64,000 nucleotides of DNA from positions 583,526 through 647,525 of the forward strand of contig JBBCGG010000001.1 of assembly GCA_037200525.1 (NCBI GenBank), in the 5' to 3' direction. The position numbers and the translations under genes are program-made. This document shows positions 17,127 to 64,000 of the stretch, one piece after another (within the stretch, counting starts at the first letter, position 1; each line of letters begins with the position of its first letter). Under the pieces are notes generated by a model that saw only the letters and a list, made by a program, of their open reading frames with translations, had not been told where the DNA came from and did not search any database. The stretch is from Methylocella sp. Its GTDB lineage: Bacteria; Pseudomonadota; Alphaproteobacteria; Rhizobiales; Beijerinckiaceae.

Positions 17127-17600
17127 TTGCTTCAGGCACAGCCTTGGAACGTCGAGCGCGCCAAAGCAATTGTCAGCGAACATGCTGGGCTCGAAGGTCC
17201 GATGCTGCCGATTCTTCATGCGTTGCAGCATGAATTTGGCTATGTCGGCGAAGCGGCCGCTCCGCTGATAGCGCAGGCGCTGAATCTCTCCCGCGCAGAA
17301 GTGCACGGCGTCATCACTTTCTACCATGATTTCAGACGCGAACCCGCCGGACGGCATGTATTAAAACTTTGCCGCGGCGAGGCTTGCCAGAGCATGGGCA
17401 GCGAGGCTCTGGCGCAAAATCTTCTTGCCGAGCTTGGCGTTGACTGGCATGGGGCGACGCAAGACGGCGCCTTGACGATCGAGCCGGTCTACTGCCTCGG
17501 CCTCTGCGCTTCATCCCCCGCGGCGATGCTCGACGGGGAGCCGCTGGCCCGGCTTGATGCCGAACGCCTCGCGGAAGCTATCGAGGCCGTGCGCCCGTGA
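17127..17600 (+). CDS. fdsG: NAD-dependent formate dehydrogenase gamma subunit (FdsG)
   Basis: NuoE-like thioredoxin-fold subunit of 157 residues carrying one [2Fe-2S] cluster in the cytoplasmic formate dehydrogenase. Ligands Cys82, Cys87 (CRGEAC), Cys123 and Cys127 (CLGLC) are present. The start is TTG at 17127 with AGGTGG 6 nt upstream; an ATG five bases earlier is out of frame. Its stop overlaps the GTG of fdsB by 4 nt, as expected for the tight fdsGBA order. The 95-nt upstream gap is AT-rich (a TTTTTTAAATAAACAAAAAAT tract in part) and should contain the promoter. Confidence 0.93.
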   Translation: MLQAQPWNVERAKAIVSEHAGLEGPMLPILHALQHEFGYVGEAAAPLIAQALNLSRAEVHGVITFYHDFRREPAGRHVLKLCRGEACQSMGSEALAQNLLAELGVDWHGATQDGALTIEPVYCLGLCASSPAAMLDGEPLARLDAERLAEAIEAVRP

Positions 17601-19146
17601 CCCGGATTTTCATTCCGAAGGACGTCGCAGCCTTAGCCGTCGGAGCCGACAAGGTCGCAGCTCGGATTTTGGCGGAGGCGCAGTTGCGCGGTCAGGCGGT
17701 CGAAATCGTCCGCACCGGCTCGCGCGGCATGTTTTTTCTGGAGCCGCTCGTCGAGATCGAGACCGAGCAAGGCCGCATCGCTATGGCCCGGTCAAAGCGT
17801 CCGATGTCGCCTCGCTGTTTGATGCGGGCTTTATTGCCGGAAACGCCCATCGGCTCCGCGTAGGCAAGCCGGAAGATCACCCTTTCTTCACCCGCCAGAC
17901 CCGCCTCAGCTTCGCCCGCTGCGGCATTATCGATCCGAGCTCGCTTGCGGATTACGCCGCGCACGATGGTTGGCGCGGCCTCGCCCGCGCAATCGACATC
18001 GGACCCGCCGCAATCATAACGGAAGTGACCAAATCGGGCCTTCGCGGGCGCGGCGGCGCCGGCTTCCCGACAGGAATCAAATGGAAGACCGTCGCCGACG
18101 CCCCGGCCGACCGCTGTTATGTCGTCTGCAACGCCGATGAGGGCGATAGCGGCACATTCGCCGACAGAATGATCATGGAAGGCGATCCTTTCGCTCTGAT
18201 CGAAGGCATGACCATCGCAGCCATCGCCGTCGGCGCAACCAAAGGCTATGTCTACTGCCGCTCGGAATATCCGCATGCGGCGAAAACCTTTTCCGAGGCG
18301 CTGAAATTGGCGAGGGAGGCTGGCTCTCTCGGCCCCGACATCCTTGGCTCGGGACATGCTTTCGAGCTTGAGCTGCGCATCGGCGCCGGAGCCTATGTCT
18401 GCGGCGAGGAAGCCGCCCTGCTCGAAAGCCTCGAAGGCAGGCGCGGCATCGTGCGGGCCAAACCGCCGCTCCCCGCGCACAAAGGTCTGTTCGAGCGGCC
18501 GACGGTCGTCAACAATGTCCTCTCGCTCGTTGCAGTCCCGACGGTGCTTGATCGCGGCGCGGAGTTTTACGCCGGCTTCGGCATGGGGCGCTCGCGTGGA
18601 ACCATGCCGTTGCAGATCGCCGGCAACGTCCGCTACGGCGGCCTGTTCGAAACGGCATTTGGCCTGACCCTCGGCGAGATCGTTGAATCGATCGGCGGCG
18701 GCACGGCTTCCGGACGGCCGGTGCGCGCAGTCCAATGCGGCGGGCCGCTGGGGGCTTATTTTCCGCCTTCGCTGTTCGACACGCCCTTCGATTATGAGGC
18801 CTTCGCTGCGCGCGACGGTCTGATCGGCCACGGCGGCCTTGTCATATTCGATGATGCGGTGGACATGGCGAAGATGGCCCGCTTCGCCATGGAGTTTTGC
18901 GCCGTCGAGAGTTGCGGCAAGTGCACGCCGTGCAGGATCGGGTCGACGCGCGGGGTTGAGGTCATCGACCGCATCATGAACGGCGTCAAAACCGCCGAAA
19001 ACATCGCGCTGCTCGAAGATCTTTGCCAGACCATGAAATTCGGCTCGCTTTGCGCGCTCGGAGGCTTTGCGCCCTATCCCGTGCTGAGCGCCGTTCGGCA
19101 TTTCAGAGAAGATTTCGCGCCGCGCCATGCGCTTGCGGCGGAGTGA
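17597..19146 (+). pseudogene. fdsB: Formate dehydrogenase beta subunit (FdsB), interrupted by a -1 frameshift
   Basis: NuoF-like FMN/NADH-binding subunit. The reading frame from GTG 17597 gives the canonical N-terminus (TRIFIPKDVAALAVGADKVAARI, in part) up to EIETEQGRIA. The family then continues YGPVKASDVASLFDAGF, but that text is in the next frame. One base is missing near 17781: GCTATGGC where GCnTATGGC is expected. Unshifted, translation would stop at about residue 88. After the shift the protein is complete: GRGGAGFPTG for NADH/FMN, and ESCGKCTPCRIG plus a later Cys for the 4Fe-4S cluster, to a total of about 516 residues. Either a real mutation, an assembly error, or less likely recoding. 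The gene is otherwise undamaged. Confidence 0.88.
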
Positions 19147-19157
19147 GGAAGATCGCC

Positions 19158-22004
19158 ATGGCTCTCATCAAAGAGATCGATTACGGCACGCCCGCCTCGA
19201 AGTTGGAAAACATGGTCGCTTTGACCATCGACGGCGTCGAGGTGCGCGCCCCGGAAGGCACGTCGATCATGCGCGCGGCGATGGGCATCGGCACAGAGAT
19301 TCCAAAACTCTGCGCCACCGACATGCTTGAGTCATTCGGCTCCTGCCGTCTTTGCCTTGTCGAGATAGAGGGGCGCAATGGCACACCGGCGTCTTGCACG
19401 ACGCCGATCGCGCCTGGCATGATCGTCAAAACCCAGACCGAGCGGTTGAAAGGTCTGCGCAAGGGCGTGATGGAGCTTTACATCTCCGACCATCCGCTTG
19501 ATTGCCTGACCTGCGCCGCAAATGGCGATTGCGAGTTGCAGACGCAGGCGGGCGCCGTTGGCCTGCGCGAGGTCCGCTACGGCTACCAGGGTGCCAATCA
19601 CCTTGAGTCGGTGAAGGACGAATCGAACCCCTACTTCACCTATGACCCGGCCAAGTGCATCGTCTGCAATCGCTGCGTGCGGGCTTGCGAGGAAGTGCAG
19701 GGCACGTTCGCCCTAACCATCGATGGCCGTGGGTTTGAAAGCCGCGTCGCGGCGGGACAGAACGAGCATTTCCTCGAATCCGAATGCGTTTCTTGCGGCG
19801 CCTGCGTGCAGGCCTGCCCCACCGCGACATTGAGCGAAAAATCAGTAATCGACATCGGTCTACCCGAACATTCGGCCGTAACGACCTGCGCCTATTGCGG
19901 CGTCGGTTGCACCTTTAAGGCGGAAATGCGCGGCGAAGAACTCGTCCGCATGGTTCCCTACAAGGACGGCAAGGCGAATCACGGCCATTCCTGCGTCAAG
20001 GGACGGTTCGCATGGGGCTACGCCACTCACCGCGATCGGATCCTCAACCCGATGATCCGCGCTAAAATCACTGATCCGTGGCGCGAGGTATCTTGGGAAG
20101 AGGCGATCTCCTACGCCGCCTCCGAGTTCAAGCGCATTCAGGCGGCTTACGGCAAACGCTCAATCGGCGGAATTACCTCGTCGCGCTGCACCAATGAAGA
20201 GACCTACCTCGTCCAAAAACTCATTCGCGGCGGATTCGGCAACAATAATGTCGATACCTGCGCCAGGGTTTGTTATTCGCCGACCGGCTATGGTCTGAAG
20301 ACCGCGTTCGGCACATCGGCGGGCACGCAGGATTTCGACTCCGTCGAAGAGACCGACGTCATGCTGGTCATAGGCGCCAATCCGACGGACGGCCATCCGG
20401 TGTTCGGCTCGCGCATGAAGAAGCGGTTGCGAGAGGGCGCGAAGCTCATCGTCATCGATCCGCGCCGGATCGATCTCGTGCGGACGCCTCATGTCGCCGC
20501 CGACTATCATCTTCCATTGAAGCCCGGCTGCAATGTCGCAGTCTTGACGGCGCTGGCTCATGTCATCGTCACGGAAGGCCTTGTAAACGAGGCTTTCGTC
20601 CGTGAGCGCTGCGATTGGTCGGAGTTTCAGGATTGGGCTGCTTTTGTCGCGGAGCCGCGCAATAGCCCGGAAGAGATCGCAAAGATCGCCGGCGTCGACG
20701 CCGATCTCATTCGCGGCGCCGCCCGCCTCTACGCCACCGGCGGCAACGCTGCGATCTTCTATGGGCTTGGCGTCACCGAACACAGCCAGGGCACGACGAC
20801 GGTTCTCGCCATCGCCAATCTTGCGATGGCGACGGGAAATCTTGGGCGGCCTGGCGTCGGCGTTAATCCGCTGCGCGGGCAGAACAATGTCCAGGGCGCC
20901 TGCGACATGGGCTCATTTCCGCATGAATTCGCTGGCTATCGCCATGTATCGGAAGATTCAGTCCGTCACGTCTATGAAAGTCTATGGGGCGTTGGGCTCG
21001 ACAACGAGCCTGGCCTGCGCATTCCCAATATGCTTGACTCCGCCGTCGAGGGAGCCTTCCGCGGCATTTATATTCAGGGCGAGGATATCTTGCAGTCCGA
21101 TCCCGACACGCATCACGTCGCCGCTGGGCTCAGAGCCATGGAATGCGTCGTCGTGCAGGATCTTTTCCTCAATGAGACGGCGAATTACGCGCATGTCTTT
21201 CTGCCTGGCTCGACCTTCCTCGAAAAGGACGGAACCTTCACCAATGCGGAGCGGCGCATCCAGCGCGTACGCAAGGTTATGAGTCCGAAGAACGGCTATG
21301 GCGATTGGGAGATCACTATCCTGCTCGCCAAGGCCATGGGTTTTTCGATGGAGTACAAACACCCGAGCGAAATCATGGACGAAGTCGCCAAAACGACGCC
21401 GAGTTTTGCCGGCGTCTCCTTCGAGAAGCTCGATGCCGTCGGATCGATTCAATGGCCGTGCAATGAAGCCGCGCCCGAGGGCACGCCAATCATGCATATA
21501 GGCCACTTCGTCTCAGGCAAAGGCAAGTTCGTCGTCACCGAATATGTCGCGACCGACGAGCGGACCGGGCCCCGCTTTCCGCTTCTGCTCACCACCGGCC
21601 GCATCCTCAGCCACTACAATGTCGGCGCGCAGACAAGGCGAACCGCCAATGTGGCGTGGCACGAGGAGGATCGCCTTGAAATCCATCCGCATGACGCGGA
21701 ACTGCGCGGCCTTCGCGATGGCGAATGGGTGAAGCTGCATAGCCGCGCCGGGGAAACTACTTTGCGCGCGCTCATCACCGATCGCGTTGCGCCGGGAGTC
21801 GTCTACACGACCTTCCATCATCCGACGACGCAGGCCAATGTTGTGACGACCGAGTTCTCCGATTGGGCGACCAATTGTCCGGAGTTCAAGGTCACTGCGG
21901 TGCAGATCTCGCATTCTAACGGACCGAGCGACTGGCAGGAAGAATATCGTCGCCAAGCCGAGGAAAGCCGCCGCATCATTCATACGATCGACGCGGCGGA
22001 ATGA
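19158..22004 (+). CDS. fdsA: Formate dehydrogenase alpha subunit (FdsA), Mo/W-bis-MGD catalytic
   Basis: Catalytic subunit of 948 residues. In order: [2Fe-2S] domain (about 15-95), His-Cys and 4Fe-4S motifs (CIVCNRCVRACEE, CVSCGACVQACPT; about 100-235), then the molybdopterin oxidoreductase body beginning CAYCGVGC, and a C-terminal MopB domain. Cys372 in the motif CARVCYSPTGYGL corresponds to the metal ligand. The next residue is Tyr373 (codon TAT, 20274-20276), where characterised FdsA enzymes have a catalytic His. The conserved Arg in NPLRGQNNVQG is present. Start ATG 19158 follows GAGGAAG; 11 nt after fdsB. Activity with the His-to-Tyr change is uncertain. Confidence 0.93.
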   Translation: MALIKEIDYGTPASKLENMVALTIDGVEVRAPEGTSIMRAAMGIGTEIPKLCATDMLESFGSCRLCLVEIEGRNGTPASCTTPIAPGMIVKTQTERLKGLRKGVMELYISDHPLDCLTCAANGDCELQTQAGAVGLREVRYGYQGANHLESVKDESNPYFTYDPAKCIVCNRCVRACEEVQGTFALTIDGRGFESRVAAGQNEHFLESECVSCGACVQACPTATLSEKSVIDIGLPEHSAVTTCAYCGVGCTFKAEMRGEELVRMVPYKDGKANHGHSCVKGRFAWGYATHRDRILNPMIRAKITDPWREVSWEEAISYAASEFKRIQAAYGKRSIGGITSSRCTNEETYLVQKLIRGGFGNNNVDTCARVCYSPTGYGLKTAFGTSAGTQDFDSVEETDVMLVIGANPTDGHPVFGSRMKKRLREGAKLIVIDPRRIDLVRTPHVAADYHLPLKPGCNVAVLTALAHVIVTEGLVNEAFVRERCDWSEFQDWAAFVAEPRNSPEEIAKIAGVDADLIRGAARLYATGGNAAIFYGLGVTEHSQGTTTVLAIANLAMATGNLGRPGVGVNPLRGQNNVQGACDMGSFPHEFAGYRHVSEDSVRHVYESLWGVGLDNEPGLRIPNMLDSAVEGAFRGIYIQGEDILQSDPDTHHVAAGLRAMECVVVQDLFLNETANYAHVFLPGSTFLEKDGTFTNAERRIQRVRKVMSPKNGYGDWEITILLAKAMGFSMEYKHPSEIMDEVAKTTPSFAGVSFEKLDAVGSIQWPCNEAAPEGTPIMHIGHFVSGKGKFVVTEYVATDERTGPRFPLLLTTGRILSHYNVGAQTRRTANVAWHEEDRLEIHPHDAELRGLRDGEWVKLHSRAGETTLRALITDRVAPGVVYTTFHHPTTQANVVTTEFSDWATNCPEFKVTAVQISHSNGPSDWQEEYRRQAEESRRIIHTIDAAE

Positions 22005-54872: not shown

Positions 54873-56498
54873 ATGAAGACCTCTACAGATGTATTAATCG
54901 TTGGCGCCGGACCGGTTGGCCTGCTGCTGGCGACAGAATTGTCGCGCGACGGAGTCGACGTTCTGCTGATTGACCACCATAAAACGCGTTCGTTCTTTTG
55001 TAAGGCGCTTGGCGTCACCCCGCGCACATTGGAGATCTTTGATGATCTCTGCATCGCTCAGGACGCCGTCGATAGCGGGGTCTGGCTGCATGGCGTTTCG
55101 GCGTTCAACGACGGCGTAGCCGGGCCGTCGATGGACGTCCCGACCGACCTTCCATTTGGCAGTCTGTCGCTGGCGCAGTTCGACACCGAACGGCTTTTGG
55201 AAGCTTGTCTGCACCGTTGCGGCGGAAGGGTGTTGTATGGCCGCACGCTCACCGGCTTCGAGGCGAGGGCTGATGGCGCCCGCGCCCAAGTCCAGGGACC
55301 AGACGGCGAGACGCAGACGGTCGATTGCCGCTGGCTGGTAGGTTGCGATGGCGCTCATAGCAAGGTCCGCACCACCCTCGGCGTGGATTTTGCGGGCGGC
55401 CAATATCCGCAAACTTTTGTTCTCGCGGATCTGGAGGTGGACTGGGATCTGCCGCGCGGCTGGATGTACCGGTTTAACACTGGAGCGGAAGCCGGCCCAT
55501 CCGGCAGCGCTGCGCTGGCGGCTGTTCCGGTGCATGGCTCCTCTCGTCGTTATAGGTTGTCCACCGTAGTGCCGGACGCCACTCTGAACACGTCGGGGGA
55601 CGCCACGGGAGAAATCTTTCCAGCGACGCTCGATCAGATCACCGCTCTAATGTCCCCTATCCTGCCGAAGGGGACGATCCTTTCATCGTTGCATTGGTCG
55701 TCGGTCTATCGGGTCAGCCACCGGATCGTGCCGACCTATGCGAAAGGACGCGTATTCCTGGCCGGCGATGCTGCGCATCTGCACCCGCCGGTTGGCGGGC
55801 AAGGCATGAACACCGGTCTTCAAGACGCGCATAATCTGGCGTGGAAGCTGACCTTGGCCTGTCGCGGGCTTGCCAGTGAGGCATTGCTGGACAGCTACTC
55901 TACCGAACGCCATGCGGTGGGTCTCGATGTCGTCGAGAACACCAACCGTGCGCTAAATGACGTGCTGGCGCAGCGCGCGCAACTGCCTGGCATGCGGGAG
56001 ACTCAACTTCTCGTCAGCTATCGCGGCAGTCCGATCGTCGAGGATGAGCGCGCTGGCGCCGCCGCCGCACTGCTCGCCGCCGGAGATCGCCTCCCAAACG
56101 CGGGACAACTGCGCCGCCCCTTCGTCGGTCATGCATTGAGGCTGCACGAGCGCCTTGGGCGTGGTCGGCACGTCTTGCTTGGCTTTATCGACGATGACCC
56201 GGCGGCGGCCTTGCTTGCGCAAATGCTGAATCTACTTCGCGCTACGCTCGGCGAAAGCGCGGACGGATGCGCCATCGCACCCCGAGGCGGAAGTCCGCTG
56301 GCGGCGCCGGAGGAACTTCCGCTCCTGACTGATGCGGGGGGAGAGTTTGCCGCAGCGGTTTCCGCCAAACCAGGAAGCGTTTGGTTGGTCCGGCCGGATG
56401 GATATATCGGCTGGTGCAGCGAGACCCCATCGACAGATGGCCTGCGATCCTTCCTGAACCTGGTGGTTCGGACGCCGCCGCCGAGCTCCGGTGGATGA
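54873..56498 (+). CDS. FAD-dependent aromatic hydroxylase-type monooxygenase (PheA/TfdB/MhpA family)
   Basis: Flavoprotein of 541 residues. FAD motifs: GAGPVGLLLATELSRDG (Rossmann, about 11-27), VGCDGAHSKVRTTLG (about 158-172) and GRVFLAGDAAHLHPPVGGQGMNTGLQDAHNLAWKL (about 290-325, seen in parts). A C-terminal thioredoxin-like part follows. The family hydroxylates phenols or polyketides with NAD(P)H and O2. No ring-cleavage genes are near, so the substrate is open. GGGAGAG precedes the start. Confidence 0.87.
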   Translation: MKTSTDVLIVGAGPVGLLLATELSRDGVDVLLIDHHKTRSFFCKALGVTPRTLEIFDDLCIAQDAVDSGVWLHGVSAFNDGVAGPSMDVPTDLPFGSLSLAQFDTERLLEACLHRCGGRVLYGRTLTGFEARADGARAQVQGPDGETQTVDCRWLVGCDGAHSKVRTTLGVDFAGGQYPQTFVLADLEVDWDLPRGWMYRFNTGAEAGPSGSAALAAVPVHGSSRRYRLSTVVPDATLNTSGDATGEIFPATLDQITALMSPILPKGTILSSLHWSSVYRVSHRIVPTYAKGRVFLAGDAAHLHPPVGGQGMNTGLQDAHNLAWKLTLACRGLASEALLDSYSTERHAVGLDVVENTNRALNDVLAQRAQLPGMRETQLLVSYRGSPIVEDERAGAAAALLAAGDRLPNAGQLRRPFVGHALRLHERLGRGRHVLLGFIDDDPAAALLAQMLNLLRATLGESADGCAIAPRGGSPLAAPEELPLLTDAGGEFAAAVSAKPGSVWLVRPDGYIGWCSETPSTDGLRSFLNLVVRTPPPSSGG

Positions 56499-56530: not shown

Positions 56531-57913
56531 TCATAGAAACGTTGAGGCGAGGGCCGGCGTTTCCGTCAGGGCGTGCGCCATATATTCGAGGGCGGTGCGG
56601 ATAGCCGACCGGTTCGTCGGACCCCCTAAGCAAACGCGCACCGCCTCCGGGGCATTGCCGTCGACGGCGAAGGCATCGCTCGGCACGACCCCGATGCCCG
56701 TCGAGCGCATATGCGCGGCGAAGGCGGATCGGGTCCAAGGCGGGGGTAGCGCGACCCATAGATTGAAGCTGATCGGGTCGGCGCGAAAACTGCCCGTCGG
56801 CAAAATCTCCGTCGCAAGCGCCTGACGCGCGGCCGTCTCCGTCCGGATGAAGCGCAAGATGGCGTCGGCGGCGCCATCCTCGATCCAGCGGGTCGCGAGC
56901 GCGACGGTGAGGGGAGACGCCATCACATTAGCGGCTCGCGCGGCGGCGGCGAAGGGCCAGCCGGAGCGCACGTCGGGCGCAAGGACGTAAGCTGCGCGCA
57001 ATCCCGCGCCGATGCATTTCGATAATCCGGCTACATGCCAGGTGAGATCCGGCGCGATCGCCGCGAAAGGCGCAGGGCCGCGTAACGGAATGAATCCATA
57101 GGCGTCGTCCTCGACGATAGGCACGCGGAACCGCCGCGCGACGGCGGCGATCGCGGTGCGGCGCGGCTCTGAAATAGTCAGCGTCGTCGGATTTTGCAGC
57201 GTCGGATTCAAATAGAGCGCCTTTGGCTGCAGCCGCTTGCAAGCCTCCGCGAAAGCGTCCGGATCGATGCCTTCCTCATCCATTGGCAACCCATGCAGCT
57301 TCAGCCCCAATTGCGCCGCGATCGAACGAGCGCCGGGGTAGGTCAGCGTCTCCGCGAGGATGGCCTCTCCGGGTTTTGCAAGGATTCCGAAAATGGCCAG
57401 CAAGGCCGGATGAGCGCCGGGCGTGACGAACAAACGTCCCTGCGCGGGCACTAGCGCGCGCCGGCCGAGCCAGCTCGACGCTGCGTCTTTGTCCGCCTGC
57501 GAACCGCCAAAGTCCTGATAGCGCAACAGAGGGATAAGATTGCGCGACACGGCTTCGAGCCCCGCTTGCATGCGTGCGATGAGGACAGGATCGTCCGGCT
57601 CGGGCGGAAGGTTCATCGAAAAATCGACGAGCACAGGCCGCGCCGTTCCCGCCGCCTTCGCGGGCTTGGCTTTGGCGAGCACGAAGGTGCCTTGGCCAAC
57701 CTTGGATTCGATCAGTCCGCGCTTTTGAGCCTCGACGTAGCCTCGCGCCACCGTCGTGAAATCGACGGCGAGCCGCTCGGCCAGTTTGCGTTGCGGCGGC
57801 AGGCGGTCTCCACTCATGAGACGCCCGCTCTGGATGTCGTCGGCGATCACGTCGGCGATGGCGAGATAGCGCGGTTTGCCGCTGCGACTCAGATCAGGCG
57901 TCCAGTCACGCAT
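56531..57913 (-). CDS. MocR-type regulator: GntR winged helix fused to class I aminotransferase domain
   Basis: Protein of 460 residues. N-terminal GntR domain (about 8-80, with GDRLPPQRKLAERLAVDFTTVARGYVEAQKRGLIESKVGQGTFV in pieces) joined to a fold-type I PLP domain (about 105-450) with the PLP lysine in HVAGLSKCIGAGLRAAYV. MocR proteins bind PLP and usually control a neighbouring gene or themselves through direct repeats. It is divergent from the Nit1 cluster, and the shared 352-nt region contains a 12-bp direct repeat, so control of Nit1 is inferred. An alternative longer frame upstream is rejected. Confidence 0.9.
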   Translation of the reverse strand: MRDWTPDLSRSGKPRYLAIADVIADDIQSGRLMSGDRLPPQRKLAERLAVDFTTVARGYVEAQKRGLIESKVGQGTFVLAKAKPAKAAGTARPVLVDFSMNLPPEPDDPVLIARMQAGLEAVSRNLIPLLRYQDFGGSQADKDAASSWLGRRALVPAQGRLFVTPGAHPALLAIFGILAKPGEAILAETLTYPGARSIAAQLGLKLHGLPMDEEGIDPDAFAEACKRLQPKALYLNPTLQNPTTLTISEPRRTAIAAVARRFRVPIVEDDAYGFIPLRGPAPFAAIAPDLTWHVAGLSKCIGAGLRAAYVLAPDVRSGWPFAAAARAANVMASPLTVALATRWIEDGAADAILRFIRTETAARQALATEILPTGSFRADPISFNLWVALPPPWTRSAFAAHMRSTGIGVVPSDAFAVDGNAPEAVRVCLGGPTNRSAIRTALEYMAHALTETPALASTFL

Positions 57914-58128: not shown

Positions 58129-58151
58129 GATTGACTGCATAATTGTATGCA
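58129..58151. promoter_or_regulatory. Downstream copy of the repeat with palindrome
   Basis: GATTGACTGCAT merges into the palindrome TGCATAATTGTATGCA, about 40 nt before the -24 element of the Nit1 promoter. Could bind MocR or an NtrC-like activator (TGCA-N8-TGCA). Confidence 0.55.
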
Positions 58152-58190
58152 AAATGACCGGTTTCGCGCGTTTCAGCGGAAACATACAAT

Positions 58191-58206
58191 TGGCACGCCG
58201 ATTGCT
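58191..58206 (+). promoter_or_regulatory. Sigma-54 promoter of the Nit1 cluster
   Basis: TGGCACG-CCGA-TTGCT matches the RpoN consensus TGGCACG-N4-TTGCW at every defined position. The predicted start of transcription is about 58218, giving a leader of about 48 nt before the first gene. Confidence 0.85.
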
Positions 58207-58265: not shown

Positions 58266-58748
58266 ATGCCAGCAGTTACCAAGCCCGCCCACCAGAAAGG
58301 CGATTTTTTCGTCGATTACGAAGAGAAAGTCTTCGAGGACGTTCAGGCGCGGCCCGGCGAAAAGGCTCTGGTCACGTTTCATACCGTCGCTTTTGAGGGC
58401 TCCATCGGCTTCGTCAACCTGCTGCAGGCGACCCGCCTCAAGCGCAAAGGCTTCGATACCTCGATCCTTCTCTACGGGCCGGGCGTCACCCTCGGCGTCC
58501 AGCGCGGCTTCCCCAAAATCGGCGATGAAGCGTTTCCGGGGCATCAGAATTTCAATAACCAGATTACCAAGTTCATGGCTGAAGGCGGCAAGGTCTATGC
58601 CTGCCGCTTCGCCTTGCAGGCGTTGTACGGCCATGGCGAACCCTCGCTGATCCCCGGCATTACGCCGATCAGCCCGCTCGACGTGCTGGATCTCATCCTG
58701 CTCCACCGCAGAGACAACGCCTTCGTCCTCGACACCTGGACGCTCTGA
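58266..58748 (+). CDS. MSMEG_0572/Sll0783-family nitrogen starvation response protein
   Basis: First gene of the Nit1 cluster; 160 residues, soluble, no membrane segment. The family is named for Synechocystis Sll0783, which responds to nitrogen starvation; its biochemical activity is unknown, though the fold resembles DsrE-like small proteins ([20 protein letters not shown], then [19 protein letters not shown] with one Cys). ATG 58266 is chosen for its GAGGAG at 6 nt; two ATG codons further upstream lack such a site. The nitrilase follows after 34 nt. Confidence 0.88.
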
Positions 58749-58782
58749 GGCCAACCGGCGGCATCCTTCATAGGAGATGGCA

Positions 58783-59832
58783 ATGGCTGAAAAGAAACTG
58801 GTCCGCGTAGCGGCCGTTCAGATCGCGCCGGACCTCGAGACGCCGACAGGAACGCTGGATCGCGTCCTGGCGGCGACCGCCGAGGCGGCGGAAAAAGGCG
58901 CCAAGCTCGTGGTCTTTCCCGAAACCTTCGTGCCTTGGTATCCCTATTTTTCCTTTGTCTATCCGCCGATGCTCACCGGCTCTGAGCATGTCCGGCTCTA
59001 TGAGAACGCCGTTACCGTACCAGGACCCGTGACGGAGGCTCTCGCCTCCGCCGCGCGGCGACATGGCGTCGTCATCGCGCTCGGAATCAACGAGCGCGAT
59101 CATGGCTCGCTCTACAATGCGCAGTTGGTCTTCGACGCCGATGGAAGTTTGCTGCTGCGGCGCCGTAAGATCACCCCGACCTTCCACGAGCGGATGATCT
59201 GGGGGCAGGGAGACGGCTCTGGCCTCAAGGTCGTCGACACCGCCGTCGGCAAGGTTGGCGCCCTCGCCTGCTGGGAGCATTACAACCCCCTCGCCCGCTA
59301 CGCGCTCATGGCGCAGCATGAGGAGATTCATGTTGCGCAATTTCCCGGCTCGATGGTCGGGCAGATTTTTGCCGATCAGATCGAGGTCACTATCCGCCAC
59401 CACGCGCTGGAATCTGGATGCTTCGTCGTCAATGCGACGGGCTGGCTAACGGAAGAGCAGATTGCGAAAATCTGCCCCGACGAAAAGATGCAACGGGGTC
59501 TGCGCGGCGGTTGCATGACGGCGATCATCTCGCCGGAAGGCGTTCATATCGTCCCGCCGATAACAAGCGGCGAAGGCATTCTCATCGCCGATCTCGACAT
59601 GGGCCTGATCGTCAAGCGCAAACGCATGGTGGACAGCGTTGGCCATTATGCGCGGCCGGAATTGCTCAGTCTCAATCTCGACAATCGTCAGACGGCGCCG
59701 ATGCAGACCGCGACGTCATTTGAACAGTCTTTCGTCTCCGGGAGCCAATTCGATGAAACAGACGATTCCAGCCGCAATCTCGACGGCGCAGTTGATCAGC
59801 GAGCTGCAGTCTTACGGAGTGCGTCTCGTTGA
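58783..59832 (+). CDS. Nit1-cluster nitrilase
   Basis: Carbon-nitrogen hydrolase of 349 residues with the Glu-Lys-Cys triad: Glu47 (VFPETF), Lys129 (RRKITP) and Cys163 (ACWEHYNPL). Hydrolyses a nitrile or cyanide to acid or formate plus ammonia; the Nit1C cluster nitrilase of Pseudomonas supports growth on cyanide. Start ATG 58783 with AGGAG 6 nt upstream. The last 25 residues overlap the next gene by 80 nt, longer than usual in this cluster. Confidence 0.92.
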
Positions 59833-60877
59833 TCCGAAGTCCGGCGCAGACAGCCGGCGCGGCGGCGCCGGTCCGTCGGACCACAAGGCTCTGACGATCG
59901 GCGGCATGACGTTGATGGCCCCGGTGCATACCGCGCCGGCGTTTGAGAGCCCCTATCTCGTCGAGAAGCCGGATGCGTTCGGCAACAGCCGCATCACCCG
60001 CGATGGGCTGCCGATCACGGAAGCCTCATTCCCGCTGCAGCCGCGCTTTTATGCTCTGCGCACGGCTGATGGCGTTCCTTACTCCAAAATCGCCGCGCTG
60101 CATGGCCGCGACGTGCTGGCGACGACCATTCTTCAAACCTGCATCCGCTATCAGAGCCGGACGAAAACCTGTCAGTTCTGCGCCATCGGCCAATCGCTCG
60201 CGGCCGGGCGCACCATCGAGCGCAAGACGCCGGCGCAACTCGCCGAGGTCGCCAAGGCGGCCGTCGAGCTTGACGGCGTCAAACATATGGTGATGACGAC
60301 TGGCACGCCGCCCGGCGCCGATCGCGGCGCATCGATCCTGACGGAAAGCGCCGCCGCCGTGAAAGCCGCCGTCGCTTTGCCGATTCAGGCGCAGTGCGAG
60401 CCGCCGGATGACGATGCGTGGTTCGGCCGCATGAAGGAGGCGGGCGTCGACGCTCTCGGCATGCATCTTGAGGCCGTAACGCCGGAGGTGCGCGCTCGCA
60501 TCATGCCGGGGAAGGCGCAAGTTCCTCTCAGCCGCTATTTTTCGGCTTATGAGGCGGCCGTTCCGGTGTTCGGCCGCGGTCAGGTTTCGACCTATATTCT
60601 GGCTGGGCTCGGGGACAGCAAGGAAGCGATCCTTGATATCTGCGAAAAGCTTGTCGCCATTGGCGTCTATCCATTCGTTGCGCCTTTCACGCCGATCTCC
60701 GGAACTCCGCTCGAAAGCCATCCGGCTCCCTCGCCCGACTTCATGCATGAGATCCTGCGCCCGCTCGCCGCGATGCTGGTCGCGGCCGGCATGAAATCGG
60801 AAGACGTCAAGGCGGGCTGCTCAAAATGCGGCGCCTGTTCCGCTCTCTCCGCCTATGAGCGGAGGATCTCGGCATGA
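59753..60877 (+). CDS. Radical SAM protein of the MSMEG_0568 (Nit1) family
   Basis: Protein of 374 residues. The Fe-S cysteines appear as [17 protein letters not shown], a CX9CX2C pattern rather than CX3CX2C, at about residues 139-152. Downstream, a TIM-barrel with [24 protein letters not shown] and a C-terminal CSKCGAC motif (about 358-364) that may bind a second cluster. Biotin synthase-like overall. Reaction unknown; conserved with the nitrilase. ATG 59753 preceded by GGGAG. Confidence 0.88.
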
Positions 60878-61416
60878 TCTTCGAGCCCTTCGCGCCTTTT
60901 CTCGCCAGCGAGTTTCAGGTGAAGTTCGCAACGCAGCCCTGGGAGCGCAATGGCGCTTATGCGCTTCGCCGCGCTGTCTTCTGCCAGGAACAGGGTCTCT
61001 TCGGAGGAAATGACCGAGATGCGATCGATGATTGCGCGATTCCGATCGTCGCGGTCTCGCTGCTTGGGGTGGCGGCCGACGCGGTAGTTGGAACCGTGCG
61101 AATTCACGAGCGGGAGCGAGGCGTCTGGCTTGGCTCGCGTCTTGCCGTCGCCGCCGATTATCGCCGCGTCGGAATGCTCGGCAGCTCGCTGATCAGACTG
61201 GCGGTGTCTTCGGCGCATGCGCGGGGATGCAAGCGTTTCTTCGCCGACGTCCAGAGCCAAAACGTCCTTTTGTTCCGGCGCATGCAATGGCGCACCATCG
61301 AAGAAGTCGTTTTGCACGGAAAGCCGCATCATAGGATGGAGGCTGATCTCGCCTTCTATCCGCCTTTCGTCAATTCCGAAGTCGGCTTTCATTCATTGTC
61401 GCGAAAGGCTGCATGA
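60874..61416 (+). CDS. GNAT-family protein of the MSMEG_0567 (Nit1) type
   Basis: Protein of 180 residues. The acetyl-CoA binding region VAADYRRVGMLGSSLIRLAVSSAH (about 91-114) follows the GNAT strand LGSRLAV; the N-terminal RRAVFCQEQGLFGGNDRDAID resembles acyl-homoserine-lactone synthase-like or phospholipid/hemolysin acyltransferase GNATs. Overlaps the previous stop (ATGA) and the next start. Acceptor unknown. Confidence 0.86.
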   Translation: MIFEPFAPFLASEFQVKFATQPWERNGAYALRRAVFCQEQGLFGGNDRDAIDDCAIPIVAVSLLGVAADAVVGTVRIHERERGVWLGSRLAVAADYRRVGMLGSSLIRLAVSSAHARGCKRFFADVQSQNVLLFRRMQWRTIEEVVLHGKPHHRMEADLAFYPPFVNSEVGFHSLSRKAA

Positions 61417-62396
61417 TGGCCAGATCGCTCGACCTCGCAGCTCTCGCCGATGCGTTGCGCGCCAGCAGCGGGCTCGCGGCGAAGCGGGACATTGGCGCGG
61501 TTGCGGCAAGGCTCGGCCTCAATGGCGCGTCCACAGTCGCTGTCGGAGATGACTGTGCCGCGATTCCCGATGGCGACGGCTTTTTGCTGTTGGCGATCGA
61601 AGGCTTCATGAATGAATTTGTTGCTGGCGACCCCTGGTTCGCCGGATGGTGCGGCGTCATGGTCAATGTCTCGGACGTTGTCGCCATGGGCGGGCGCCCC
61701 ATCGCTGTCGTCGACGCGCTGTGGGCGGATGGCGAGGACAAGGCTGATTCGGTGCTCGCTGGCCTGCGAGCGGCGGCCGATGCTTTCGGCGTGCCGATTG
61801 TCGGCGGCCACACCAATATCCGGACCGATCGCGGGCAGCTCTCGGTCGCTATCCTTGGACGCGCCAAACGCCTTCTGACCAGCTTTGACGCTCTGCCTGG
61901 CGATCGCCTTATCGCCGCGATAGATCTGCGCGGTCGCTATCGCGAGCGCTTCTCCAATTGGGAAGCAGCGACGAACGCGCCGCCTGCTCGGCTTCGTGCG
62001 GATCTCGAAATCCTTCCGGTAATCGCCGAAGCGGGCCTCGCCAAAGCCGCCAAGGATATCAGCCAGGGCGGCTTGATCGGGACAGCCGCCATGCTCGTTG
62101 AATGCTCGGGGGTCGGCGCCGAGATCAATGTCGCGGCGGTTCCTCGCCCTGACGGCGTCCCGCTCGCGCGCTGGCTCGCTACATTCCCGAGCTTTGGTTA
62201 TCTCCTGTCGGTAGCGCCGCGCGATGTCGCTGAGGTGCTTGAGGCTTTCACGCGACGCGGCATCGCCGCCGCCGACATTGGAGCCGTCACGATGGGCGAG
62301 CAACTGGCCATTGTCGACGGCGCCTCAAAGCAAGTGATTTGGGATTTTTCCGAACGGCCTTTGATCGGCTGCGCCCGGCATGAGGCGTGCGCATGA
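61413..62396 (+). CDS. AIR synthase (PurM)-related ATP-binding protein of the Nit1 cluster
   Basis: Protein of 327 residues of the Sll0787 family, related to PurM, SelD and ThiL. The N-terminal GDDCAAIPDGDGFLLLAIEGF with its Asp pair (about 46-50) and VNVSDVVAMGGRPIAVVDAL are ATP/Mg-binding signatures; GGHTNI and KAAKDISQGGLIGTAAML continue the fold. It may phosphorylate or activate a substrate in the cluster pathway. Begins ATGATGG overlapping the GNAT stop; ends in ATGA with the glycosyltransferase. Confidence 0.88.
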   Translation: MMARSLDLAALADALRASSGLAAKRDIGAVAARLGLNGASTVAVGDDCAAIPDGDGFLLLAIEGFMNEFVAGDPWFAGWCGVMVNVSDVVAMGGRPIAVVDALWADGEDKADSVLAGLRAAADAFGVPIVGGHTNIRTDRGQLSVAILGRAKRLLTSFDALPGDRLIAAIDLRGRYRERFSNWEAATNAPPARLRADLEILPVIAEAGLAKAAKDISQGGLIGTAAMLVECSGVGAEINVAAVPRPDGVPLARWLATFPSFGYLLSVAPRDVAEVLEAFTRRGIAAADIGAVTMGEQLAIVDGASKQVIWDFSERPLIGCARHEACA

Positions 62397-63544
62397 GCCT
62401 GCGCGTCGCCATCCTCGCGCATTCGACCAATCCGCGCGGTGGCGTCATCCACGCGCTCGAGCTCGCCGACGCGCTTGTCGGACTTGGGCACGAGGCGACG
62501 GTGCACGCGCCAGATCCCAAAGGCAGCGGCTTTTTCCGCCAGACGAATTGCCGAACGGTGTCGGTTCCTGCGTCGGCGGCGCCCGTCGACGTGACTGAGA
62601 TGGTCAAGATTCGCATCGCCGAATACGTGCGCCATTTCGAAGATCCGGCAAATCGCGGGTTCGACGTTTATCACGCACAGGACGGCATATCGGGCAATGC
62701 GCTCGCAACCTTGAAGGCTCGCGGCTTGGTTGGCGCCGCGGCTCGCACCGTCCATCATGTCGACAACTTCAAGTCGGCGGATTTAGCGGCTTTGCAGACG
62801 CGCGCGATAGGCGCCGCCGACGCGCATTTTGTCGTTAGCCGGACATGGCGGGATTGGTTGGCTGAACGCTTCGACGTTTCTGCGACAGTCATCGGCAACG
62901 GGGTCGACTCCCGCCGTTTCACCAACGCGGCCGGCGATCGCGACGCTGAATTGCGCCAGCGCCTTGGCCTTGCGTCCGGCCCCGTGTTTCTTTCCGTCGG
63001 CGGCGTCGAAGAGCGCAAGAATACGATCCGCATCCTCGAAGCCTTCCAGCAGGTCCATAGCCTCTATCCATTGGCGCAGCTTGTCATCGCCGGCGGCGCA
63101 TCTTTGCTGGATCATGAAGCCTATCAGCAGATGTTCTCAGAGGCGCTGGAGGCCAGCGGATTGCCGGCGGGCGCCGTCATTCGCACAGGTCCGCTGGCGC
63201 AGGCGGATATGCCGTCTCTGTACCGCATCGCCGACGTCCTCGCCTTCCCGTCGCTGAAAGAGGGTTTTGGCCTCGTCGTGATCGAGGCGATGGCGAGCGG
63301 GACGCCGGTAGCGACCTCCAAAATTGCGCCTTTTACGGAATATCTCGGCGACAATGATGTTGCCTGGTGCGACCCGTTCAGTACGGCCTCGATCGCCAAC
63401 GCCATGATCGCCGCGCTTGCTGAACCATTGCGCAGTCGATTGATCGCCGCAGGCGGCGCGGTCGCTCGCAAACATGATTGGCGGAAGACGGCCAAGGCGC
63501 ATCTCGCCGCTTATGAAAATCTGAAGGAGCTTCGTCATGCCTGA
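62393..63544 (+). CDS. Glycosyltransferase family 4-like protein of the MSMEG_0565 (Nit1) type
   Basis: GT-B fold protein of 383 residues: N-terminal AILAHSTNPRGGVIHALELADAL, donor-binding C-terminal half with FLSVGGVEERKNTIRILEAF and the E-x7-E motif in PSLKEGFGLVVIEAMASGTPV (about 288-308). Transfers a sugar from a nucleotide donor to an unknown acceptor, suggesting that the Nit1 product is glycosylated. ATG 62393 overlaps the previous stop. Confidence 0.9.
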   Translation: MSLRVAILAHSTNPRGGVIHALELADALVGLGHEATVHAPDPKGSGFFRQTNCRTVSVPASAAPVDVTEMVKIRIAEYVRHFEDPANRGFDVYHAQDGISGNALATLKARGLVGAAARTVHHVDNFKSADLAALQTRAIGAADAHFVVSRTWRDWLAERFDVSATVIGNGVDSRRFTNAAGDRDAELRQRLGLASGPVFLSVGGVEERKNTIRILEAFQQVHSLYPLAQLVIAGGASLLDHEAYQQMFSEALEASGLPAGAVIRTGPLAQADMPSLYRIADVLAFPSLKEGFGLVVIEAMASGTPVATSKIAPFTEYLGDNDVAWCDPFSTASIANAMIAALAEPLRSRLIAAGGAVARKHDWRKTAKAHLAAYENLKELRHA

Positions 63545-63824
63545 GATGCATTTCAAAATCCGGTGGCCCGACGGCACAGCGGAACGCTGCTATTCGCCCT
63601 CGCTCGTAATCAAGGATTTTTTCGAAGCCGGAGCGAGCTATCCGCTTGCTGATTTCATTGAGAAAAGCCGCGCCGCCCTCAACATCGCCAGCGATCGCGT
63701 GAAGGCGAAATACGGCGCCCCATGTTCGCTTGCCCTCGGTCAACTCGCTCGCATTGAAGCGGCCGGAGCAAGGTTCGCCACGACGCCAAACGCTCGCGTC
63801 AGCGTCGAAGTCTTCGAGAATTAA
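63537..63824 (+). CDS. MSMEG_0570-family nitrogen starvation response protein
   Basis: Small protein of 95 residues conserved in Nit1 clusters. Begins [13 protein letters not shown], with an acidic/basic body and no membrane segment or cysteines of note except near residue 20 and 63. Function unknown. Overlaps the glycosyltransferase stop by 8 nt. Confidence 0.85.
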
Positions 63825-63847
63825 CGCTTACAGGAGGAGTTGTTCCG

Positions 63848-64000
63848 ATGAGCTCACGCCTACCTTCCCATCGCTCCGTCGTCGTCATTGGCGGCGGCCA
63901 AGCCGGTCTTTCAGCCAGTTATTTTTTGAAACAGCATGGCGTCGATCATATCATTCTTGAGAAAAACCGCATTGCGCACTCCTGGCGCACTCAACGCTGG
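63848..64000 (+). CDS. Flavin-dependent oxidoreductase of the MSMEG_0569 (Nit1) type, 5' part
   Basis: Cut by the window end; 51 residues visible. The Rossmann FAD-binding motif [21 protein letters not shown] and a following HSWRTQRW match group B flavin monooxygenases, and a flavoprotein is a regular member of Nit1 clusters. ATG 63848 follows AGGAGGAG. Confidence 0.85.

Follow-up and report, generated by a model that had tools for sequence, protein, structure and literature searches.

The DNA window analyzed here is a 64,000-nucleotide stretch of Methylocella sp. (contig JBBCGG010000001.1, positions 583,526 to 647,525), and its last part, from window position 58266 to 64000, holds an intact Nit1C nitrilase gene cluster. 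The core genes nitB-nitC-nitD-nitE-nitF-nitG lie together with nitH in a single cluster, and the seven proteins completed before the window end, as well as the flavoprotein that runs past it, all score above curated NCBIfam cut-offs. The host genome (5.24 Mb) is one contig, and the operon was traced beyond the end of the window. The features, in window coordinates, are these:

56531 to 57913, minus strand: MocR-type regulator gene (GntR helix-turn-helix domain and pyridoxal phosphate [PLP] aminotransferase fold), divergent from nitB.
58130 to 58159, plus strand: candidate MocR operator, tandem direct repeats of the TGANYG type 11 to 12 bp apart, ATTGACTGCATAATTGTATGCAAAATGACC.
58191 to 58206, plus strand: predicted sigma-54 (-24/-12) promoter, TGGCAC-N5-TTGCT, by motif match.
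58266 to 58748, plus strand: nitB, MSMEG_0572/Sll0783 family, DsrE/F-like (TIGR04044, 288 bits; cut-off 110).
58777 to 59832, plus strand: nitC, Nit6803-family nitrilase with E49-K131-C165 (TIGR04048, 561 bits; cut-off 503).
59753 to 60877, plus strand: nitD, radical S-adenosylmethionine (SAM) protein with CX9CX2C and a C-terminal CX2CX2C (TIGR04043, 604 bits; cut-off 304).
60874 to 61416, plus strand: nitE, GNAT acyltransferase (TIGR04045, 231 bits; cut-off 68).
61413 to 62396, plus strand: nitF, PurM/ThiL/SelD/HypE-like (AIRS-like) ATP-dependent enzyme (TIGR04049, 474 bits; cut-off 321).
62387 to 63544, plus strand: GT4 glycosyltransferase, MSMEG_0565 family (TIGR04047, 507 bits; cut-off 260).
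63537 to 63824, plus strand: nitG, small protein with invariant Cys63 (TIGR04042, 129 bits; cut-off 80).
63848 to 64000 in the window (first 153 bases; reading frame ends at 65128), plus strand: nitH, flavin-dependent oxidoreductase (TIGR04046, 652 bits for the whole protein; cut-off 498).
65142 to 66065, outside the window, plus strand: LnmK-like gene (TIGR04099, 329 bits; LnmK model TIGR04098, 288 bits, cut-off 100).

A preliminary description of this DNA named a Nit1C cluster with nitrilase, radical SAM, GNAT, PurM-like, glycosyltransferase, and flavoprotein genes, all of which are present. It also described the genes as overlapping, which holds at five of the eight junctions (NitC/NitD, 80 bases; NitD/NitE and NitE/NitF, 4 each; NitF/glycosyltransferase, 10; glycosyltransferase/NitG, 8) but not at the other three, which are gaps of 28 (NitB/NitC), 23 (NitG/NitH), and 13 (NitH/LnmK-like) bases. 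The divergent MocR gene, the promoter region, and the LnmK-like gene beyond the window were left out of that description. Position 58266 is where the conserved part of NitB begins, and the LnmK-like gene is followed, on the opposite strand, by an epimerase-like gene, UbiB, and UbiE.

The cluster was compared with 109 nitB loci, made up of the best 80 of at least 561 confirmed relatives together with 25 other genomic and 4 plasmid loci. The 80-locus set leans toward Pseudomonas, a bias that probably stems from the gammaproteobacterial first row of the query alignment, and the loci are not independent; two pairs (L042/L149 and L050/L125) have DNA in common and each seem to be a single contig, so that at most 107 are distinct. 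Gene counts reflect tblastn thresholds with the window's proteins, and a missing match may mean the end of a contig, whereas conservation was read on aligned subsets (61 MocR, 87 NitC, 102 NitD, and 27 LnmK-like proteins). Per 109 loci we count NitC in 108, NitD in 108, NitE in 107, NitF in 105, NitG in 102, and NitH in 101 (some cut by contig ends), with MocR in 65, the glycosyltransferase in 35, the LnmK-like gene in 30, and a ligase of the Klebsiella type in 3.

The DNA before nitB contains what appears to be a shared control region. TGGCAC-N5-TTGCW is the sigma-54 consensus, and its single exact match in the 64 kb is at 58191 to 58206 (0.04 expected), ending 59 bases upstream of the nitB start codon. 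A sigma-54 score of at least 9 of 11 is found before nitB at 106 of the 109 loci (64 of 65 with MocR, 42 of 44 without), compared with 212 of 2,180 random 350-base windows from the same loci, and on this motif evidence we place the operon in the sigma-54 regulon, behind a -24/-12 element. Tandem TGANYG-type repeats 11 to 12 bp apart, sought in these 106 loci, lie just upstream of the promoter in 48 of 64 MocR loci versus 1 of 42 others and 17 of 3,270 random windows; the MocR loci were the source of the repeat pattern, and only the non-MocR and random sets serve as controls. The commonest offset, 36 bases before the -24 element, accounts for 28 of the 48. The combined sigma-54 and MocR-repeat control region of Nit1C, as predicted here, is new; Podar et al. 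(PMC1199592; here and below, published work is cited from partial texts) state that conserved transcription factor sites could not be found.

The regulator matches the Pfam GntR and Aminotran_1_2 models but scores 431 bits with the EhuR model (cut-off, 480), and we therefore call it MocR-type and not EhuR. Its open frame extends back to 58189, and because homology starts near residue 93 of this long frame, a start at 57913 is likely. K391 (long-frame numbering) is at least 97% conserved among the 61 aligned proteins and is presumably the PLP lysine. At the threshold used, all 65 MocR genes lie on the strand opposite nitB, NitA-type genes are present at 39 loci, one locus (L139) has both a NitA-type and a MocR gene, and 6 of the 109 have neither. 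The single NitA-type protein scanned matches sigma-54 activator models; MocR is not a sigma-54 activator, and the operon thus presumably also needs NtrC or a comparable general activator of nitrogen genes. Directly upstream of the MocR gene, at 54873 to 56498, is a gene resembling FAD-dependent aromatic-ring monooxygenases (PF01494, 265 bits), and a GntR/UTRA-type regulator gene family, of which one member was scanned, occurs near 11 loci.

The gene after nitH belongs to the Pnap_2097 family (TIGR04099) and also exceeds the cut-off of the LnmK acyltransferase/decarboxylase model (TIGR04098). LnmK is a bifunctional enzyme that takes (2R)-methylmalonyl-CoA to a propionyl group on a carrier protein, and its Tyr62, which we take to be an active-site residue, aligns with Y88 of the Methylocella protein, which is at least 97% conserved in the 27 aligned LnmK-like proteins; both the domain model and the active-site tyrosine thus place the protein with LnmK. 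The gene is strongly tied to Nit1C. Among 397 genomes sampled from the order, 27 carry the LnmK-like gene over the cut-off, 42 carry nitB, and 23 carry both, and in all 23 the two are on one contig and strand, with the LnmK-like gene 4,338 to 8,480 bases downstream of nitB. The corresponding numbers in a phylum sample, also of 397 genomes, are 6, 19, and 5, and the hypergeometric values for co-occurrence are 5e-22 (order) and 8e-7 (phylum), with kinship among the genomes ignored. Among 60 plasmid records with LnmK-like matches, five were opened and three sit within Nit1C clusters. The megaplasmid of Methylorubrum extorquens AM1 has a Nit1C cluster that includes both the glycosyltransferase and the LnmK-like gene. 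An association of the LnmK-like gene exclusively with the glycosyltransferase held in the first Nit1C loci and then failed, with 13 of 30 LnmK-like loci lacking a glycosyltransferase.

The neighbors of the LnmK-like gene point to three-carbon (C3) acyl chemistry. A methylmalonyl-CoA mutase gene, found by clustering neighboring open reading frames (ORFs) with all 14 proteins then scanned, is present at 14 of 109 loci (Pseudomonas, Paraburkholderia, Caballeronia, Burkholderia, Cupriavidus, and Marinomonas) and adjoins the LnmK-like gene on the same strand in all 14, a chemically sensible pairing because LnmK uses (2R)-methylmalonyl-CoA. Each of the 14 matches the methylmalonyl-CoA mutase model best; 12 exceed the cut-off of 876 bits, and the two from Marinomonas score 801 and 800. 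Two Pseudomonas loci have the LnmK-like and mutase genes past nitA, at the opposite end of the cluster. Three enterobacterial loci (Klebsiella, Serratia, and Sodalis) have an acyl-CoA ligase gene after nitH in place of the mutase; its best model is propionate-CoA ligase (491, 619, and 524 bits), but all three scores are under the cut-off of 955 and the acetate-CoA ligase model also matches (404, 457, and 438 bits), and we therefore leave the exact substrate unassigned. The Methylocella cluster has no mutase gene, with two mutase-family genes elsewhere in the genome (PF01642, 761 and 330 bits).

We read this extension as a putative C3-acyl module, which is new for Nit1C; among the papers listed from the openly licensed literature searched, none was seen to assign the LnmK-like gene to Nit1C or to suggest that methylmalonyl or propionyl groups are involved. 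The mutase neighbor itself is not new, and a claim that it had gone unseen was dropped, as it is already listed for the nine-ORF operon of the Red Sea Atlantis II nitrilase, reported in 2016, that ends in a conserved hypothetical protein and a putative methylmalonyl-CoA mutase (PMC4751646). The text available for that operon neither likens the hypothetical protein to LnmK nor suggests a role in acyl chemistry, and, unlike that operon, the Methylocella cluster is not followed by a mutase gene.

The cluster is real and mostly known already. The glycosyltransferase variant of Nit1C was described in 2005, and the Burkholderia and Rubrivivax clusters share the core order with a glycosyltransferase between ORFs 5 and 6 (PMC1199592); relative to these, the Methylocella operon adds the LnmK-like gene after nitH and the divergent MocR gene. 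The nit1C cluster of Pseudomonas pseudoalcaligenes CECT5344, for which growth on cyanide has been demonstrated, has the same nitBCDEFGH order, but its regulator is the sigma-54-dependent NitA in place of MocR, and the gene order as given includes neither a glycosyltransferase nor an LnmK-like gene (PMC11049912). Members of the gpr cluster of Mycobacterium smegmatis (MSMEG_0565 to MSMEG_0572) give the families of the window's proteins their names and share control by nitrogen starvation; that control is exerted by GlnR, in contrast to the predicted sigma-54 and MocR control here, and there is no LnmK-like gene among its eight ORFs as described (PMC6039565). The gpr work and Nit1C have been joined before (PMC9716671 cites both), and we dropped the idea that they had not. 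The LnmK of leinamycin biosynthesis shares with the Methylocella protein the model match and the aligned tyrosine, but identity is low and no polyketide synthase or carrier protein gene was noticed at the window's cluster.

NitC scores over the TIGR04048 cut-off and contains the Glu-Lys-Cys residues that we take to be catalytic in Nit6803-type nitrilases, which places it in subfamily 1; E49, K131, and C165 are each at least 97% conserved among the 87 of 108 sequences that could be aligned. Its nearest solved structure is the nitrilase PDB 3wuy (500 bits), whereas cyanide dihydratase chains score 189 to 191 bits, and NitC is not closest to CynD, the type of enzyme that converts HCN to formate and ammonia. 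The suggestion in the preliminary description that formate from cyanide would enter the one-carbon (C1) metabolism of the host is not supported, in view of this placement and of the report that Pseudomonas NitC acts on a 2-hydroxynitrile formed chemically from cyanide and oxaloacetate (PMC11049912). The C1 setting itself is likely, and the host has two fae genes of C1 metabolism. A role for the host as a methanotroph with particulate methane monooxygenase is unsupported; pmoA was not found, in a search in which control genomes were equally silent.

These findings bear on cyanide or nitrile assimilation proper, in which NitC would hydrolyze external cyanohydrins or nitriles, the other proteins would make an acceptor, repair, or protect, and any metabolite would be secondary. 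The nitrilase is found at 108 of 109 loci, and cytochrome bd genes lie near a rearranged Methylocystis cluster, both of which agree with such a role. Nitrilases of other families hydrolyze cyanide without such partners, and assimilation leaves the conservation of the core and the acyl and sugar genes unexplained. In Pseudomonas, nit1C is reported to be essential for growth on cyanide (PMC11049912), as the preliminary description rightly said, and to be induced by a cyanide-containing residue, but the NADPH and peroxide phenotypes of other hosts are tied to nitrogen starvation, and cyanide goes unmentioned in the text available for the Mycobacterium study (PMC6039565). Taken together, we see assimilation as a possible but doubtful account of the whole cluster.

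The enzyme set suggests synthesis rather than bare hydrolysis, as had been proposed, and the LnmK-like, methylmalonyl-CoA mutase, and propionate-CoA-ligase-like neighbors strengthen this. NitD is a radical SAM superfamily protein (PF04055, 50 bits; cut-off 29.5) with further NCBIfam matches to a variant radical SAM model and, at a weak level, to LipS2 lipoyl synthase; no PDB sequence matches it at an E value of 0.1. The canonical radical SAM motif is CX3CX2C, and the noncanonical spacing noted earlier is borne out, with C130-x9-C140-x2-C143 invariant in 102 alignable NitD proteins. A second triad, C356-x2-C359-x2-C362, is likewise invariant in the 102 and may hold another iron-sulfur cluster. 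The PDB relatives of NitF are ThiL, PurL, SelD, HypE, and PurM. NitF also resembles methanogenesis marker 2 (255 bits, below the cut-off of 365), and the NitB model matches two control genomes, those of Synechococcus elongatus and Methanosarcina acetivorans, though one of the two scores falls short of the cut-off; a module common to Nit1C and methanogens is possible.

NitB has a DsrE/TusD/YchN-like fold (predicted local distance difference test [pLDDT] of the model, 76.7). The fold search returns nine PDB matches at an E value of 0.001 or less, of which one has no assigned function and the other eight are chains named DsrE/DsrF-like, DsrEFH, YchN, or TusBCD; 3mc3, 3pnx, 1jx7, 2hy5, and 2d1p match at 2e-4 or better, which makes NitB a DsrE/DsrF-like protein, and Cys113, after the central strand, is kept in all 109 sequences. 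Kinship to DsrE has been stated previously for the homologues of Synechocystis (PMC3901256) and Mycobacterium (PMC6039565). NitG is modeled confidently (pLDDT 94.9) and has no Foldseek match in the PDB at an E value of 0.001 or better; its Cys63 is present in 100% of 102 sequences, and the conservation alignment shows an invariant cysteine in NitH as well. In a Synechocystis nitB (sll0783) mutant NADPH/NADP is not raised upon nitrogen starvation (PMC3901256), and deletion of MSMEG_0565 to MSMEG_0572 results in peroxide sensitivity and low NADPH/NADP (PMC6039565). Cyanide use does not account for these nitrogen-starvation phenotypes outside Pseudomonas. The shortage of NADPH in both of these unrelated mutants, the NitB fold, and the invariant cysteines of NitB, NitG, and NitH would all suit a redox module with no secreted or stored metabolite, with NitB and NitH acting as direct reductases or as a persulfide relay that keeps NADPH high; such a module could do without the nitrilase, the radical SAM enzyme, the glycosyltransferase, and the acyl module, and we consider it quite unlikely.

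The acyl module, the control region, and the redox phenotypes together favor a biosynthetic pathway over a plain route of cyanide hydrolysis. On balance, we think it somewhat probable that Nit1C in this host directs the biosynthesis, under nitrogen starvation, of an acylated and glycosylated small metabolite with a redox role, with nitrile hydrolysis as one step. By sequence, a sigma-54 promoter and a MocR gene with its candidate operator precede a tight operon of seven core genes, the glycosyltransferase, and the LnmK-like gene. Most pathway steps are undefined, as was noted at the outset, and all chemical steps but nitrile hydrolysis are assigned here from family membership. NitD, NitF (through ATP-dependent activation of the PurM/HypE type), and the flavoprotein NitH would build a small core; NitC would hydrolyze a nitrile, present either on this core or on an adduct with cyanide, releasing ammonia; NitE and the LnmK-like enzyme would attach acyl groups, in the latter case a propionyl unit from methylmalonyl-CoA; and the glycosyltransferase would attach a sugar. 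NitB and perhaps NitG could serve, via their invariant cysteines, as sulfur or electron carriers. The product would help to keep starved cells reduced, and use of cyanide as a nitrogen source would be one outcome of the nitrile step.

A more specific form of this proposal has the product as a low-molecular-weight redox metabolite in which sulfur delivered by NitB is inserted by NitD, followed by N-acylation by NitE, propionylation by the LnmK-like enzyme, and glycosylation, with variants in proteobacteria, cyanobacteria, and mycobacteria and with growth on cyanide as a by-product of the nitrilase step; all of this together is unlikely. The glycosylated product foreseen in the preliminary description fits the glycosyltransferase gene present here but not Nit1C at large, since only 35 of 109 loci carry one. 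The natural product name viridisamide occurred, among the papers listed, only in work on cyanobactins and cyanobacterial compounds.

Several observations weigh against acylated-metabolite biosynthesis. No metabolite has been seen, and the Pseudomonas cyanide phenotype fits plain nitrile hydrolysis equally well. LnmK works with an acyl carrier protein partner; no gene for one was noticed among the cluster ORFs, the genome not having been searched for one, and the alignment to LnmK is weak (best domain, 15 bits). Four of the 27 LnmK-like genes in the order sample, all from one genus (two of them are loci L184 and L186), come from genomes without nitB over the cut-off, as does one of the six from the phylum sample, and the two most distant plasmid LnmK-like genes (26 to 27% identical) lie in polyketide-like and glycan surroundings without Nit1C. 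Both the LnmK-like gene (30 of 109 loci) and the glycosyltransferase are optional, and 38 of 109 loci have no MocR, glycosyltransferase, or LnmK-like gene. Locus L185 keeps MocR, NitB, NitC, NitD, NitH, and the LnmK-like gene with no match to NitE, NitF, or the glycosyltransferase.

A gene resembling major facilitator superfamily (MFS) transporters, which would suit uptake and so also tells against synthesis, lies a median of about 2.3 kb past the cluster at 15 of 109 loci (L076, at 17526 to 19760, and L043, L074, L075, L077 to L081, L083, L085, L086, L096, L099, and L124; one member was scanned), and for 13 of the 15 the host name is Pseudomonas or Stutzerimonas. Uptake would be expected if the cluster served to degrade a compound of plants or microbes that bears a nitrile, the transfer of acyl groups and sugars then being part of detoxification, in line with the 2005 suggestion of Podar et al. 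that defense compounds of plants or microbes are detoxified (PMC1199592), and some of the hosts listed do come from plants or the rhizosphere. However, this is the one family scanned among the listed neighbors that resembles a transporter and it is present at only these 15 loci, and Mycobacterium induces its cluster strongly upon plain nitrogen starvation (PMC6039565); we regard breakdown of such a compound as very unlikely.

Nit1C has been an orphan since 2005, despite reports of it in cyanobacteria, mycobacteria, and proteobacteria. Should the product indeed carry a sugar and a propionyl group, there would be something concrete to search for, and if biosynthesis of a redox metabolite is correct, growth on cyanide, low NADPH, and peroxide sensitivity would be united in one pathway. 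The conserved sigma-54 and MocR control region, as predicted, would offer a direct handle for switching the cluster on.

The cluster is also found on plasmids, with nitB homologues in 515 of 72,556 plasmid records, 374 of them from Klebsiella. In the single Klebsiella plasmid stretch opened (L073), an acyl-CoA-ligase gene is present, as is a divergent MocR-like gene. A plasmid of Methylocystis iwaonis (L068) carries a rearranged Nit1C with nitB, 55% identical to that of the window, on the other strand and adjoining FdrA-like and DUF1116 genes and those for cytochrome bd. In Methylorubrum extorquens AM1 and Marinomonas (L070, L119, and L120), a second nitrilase-like gene lies near the MocR gene, close to the cluster.

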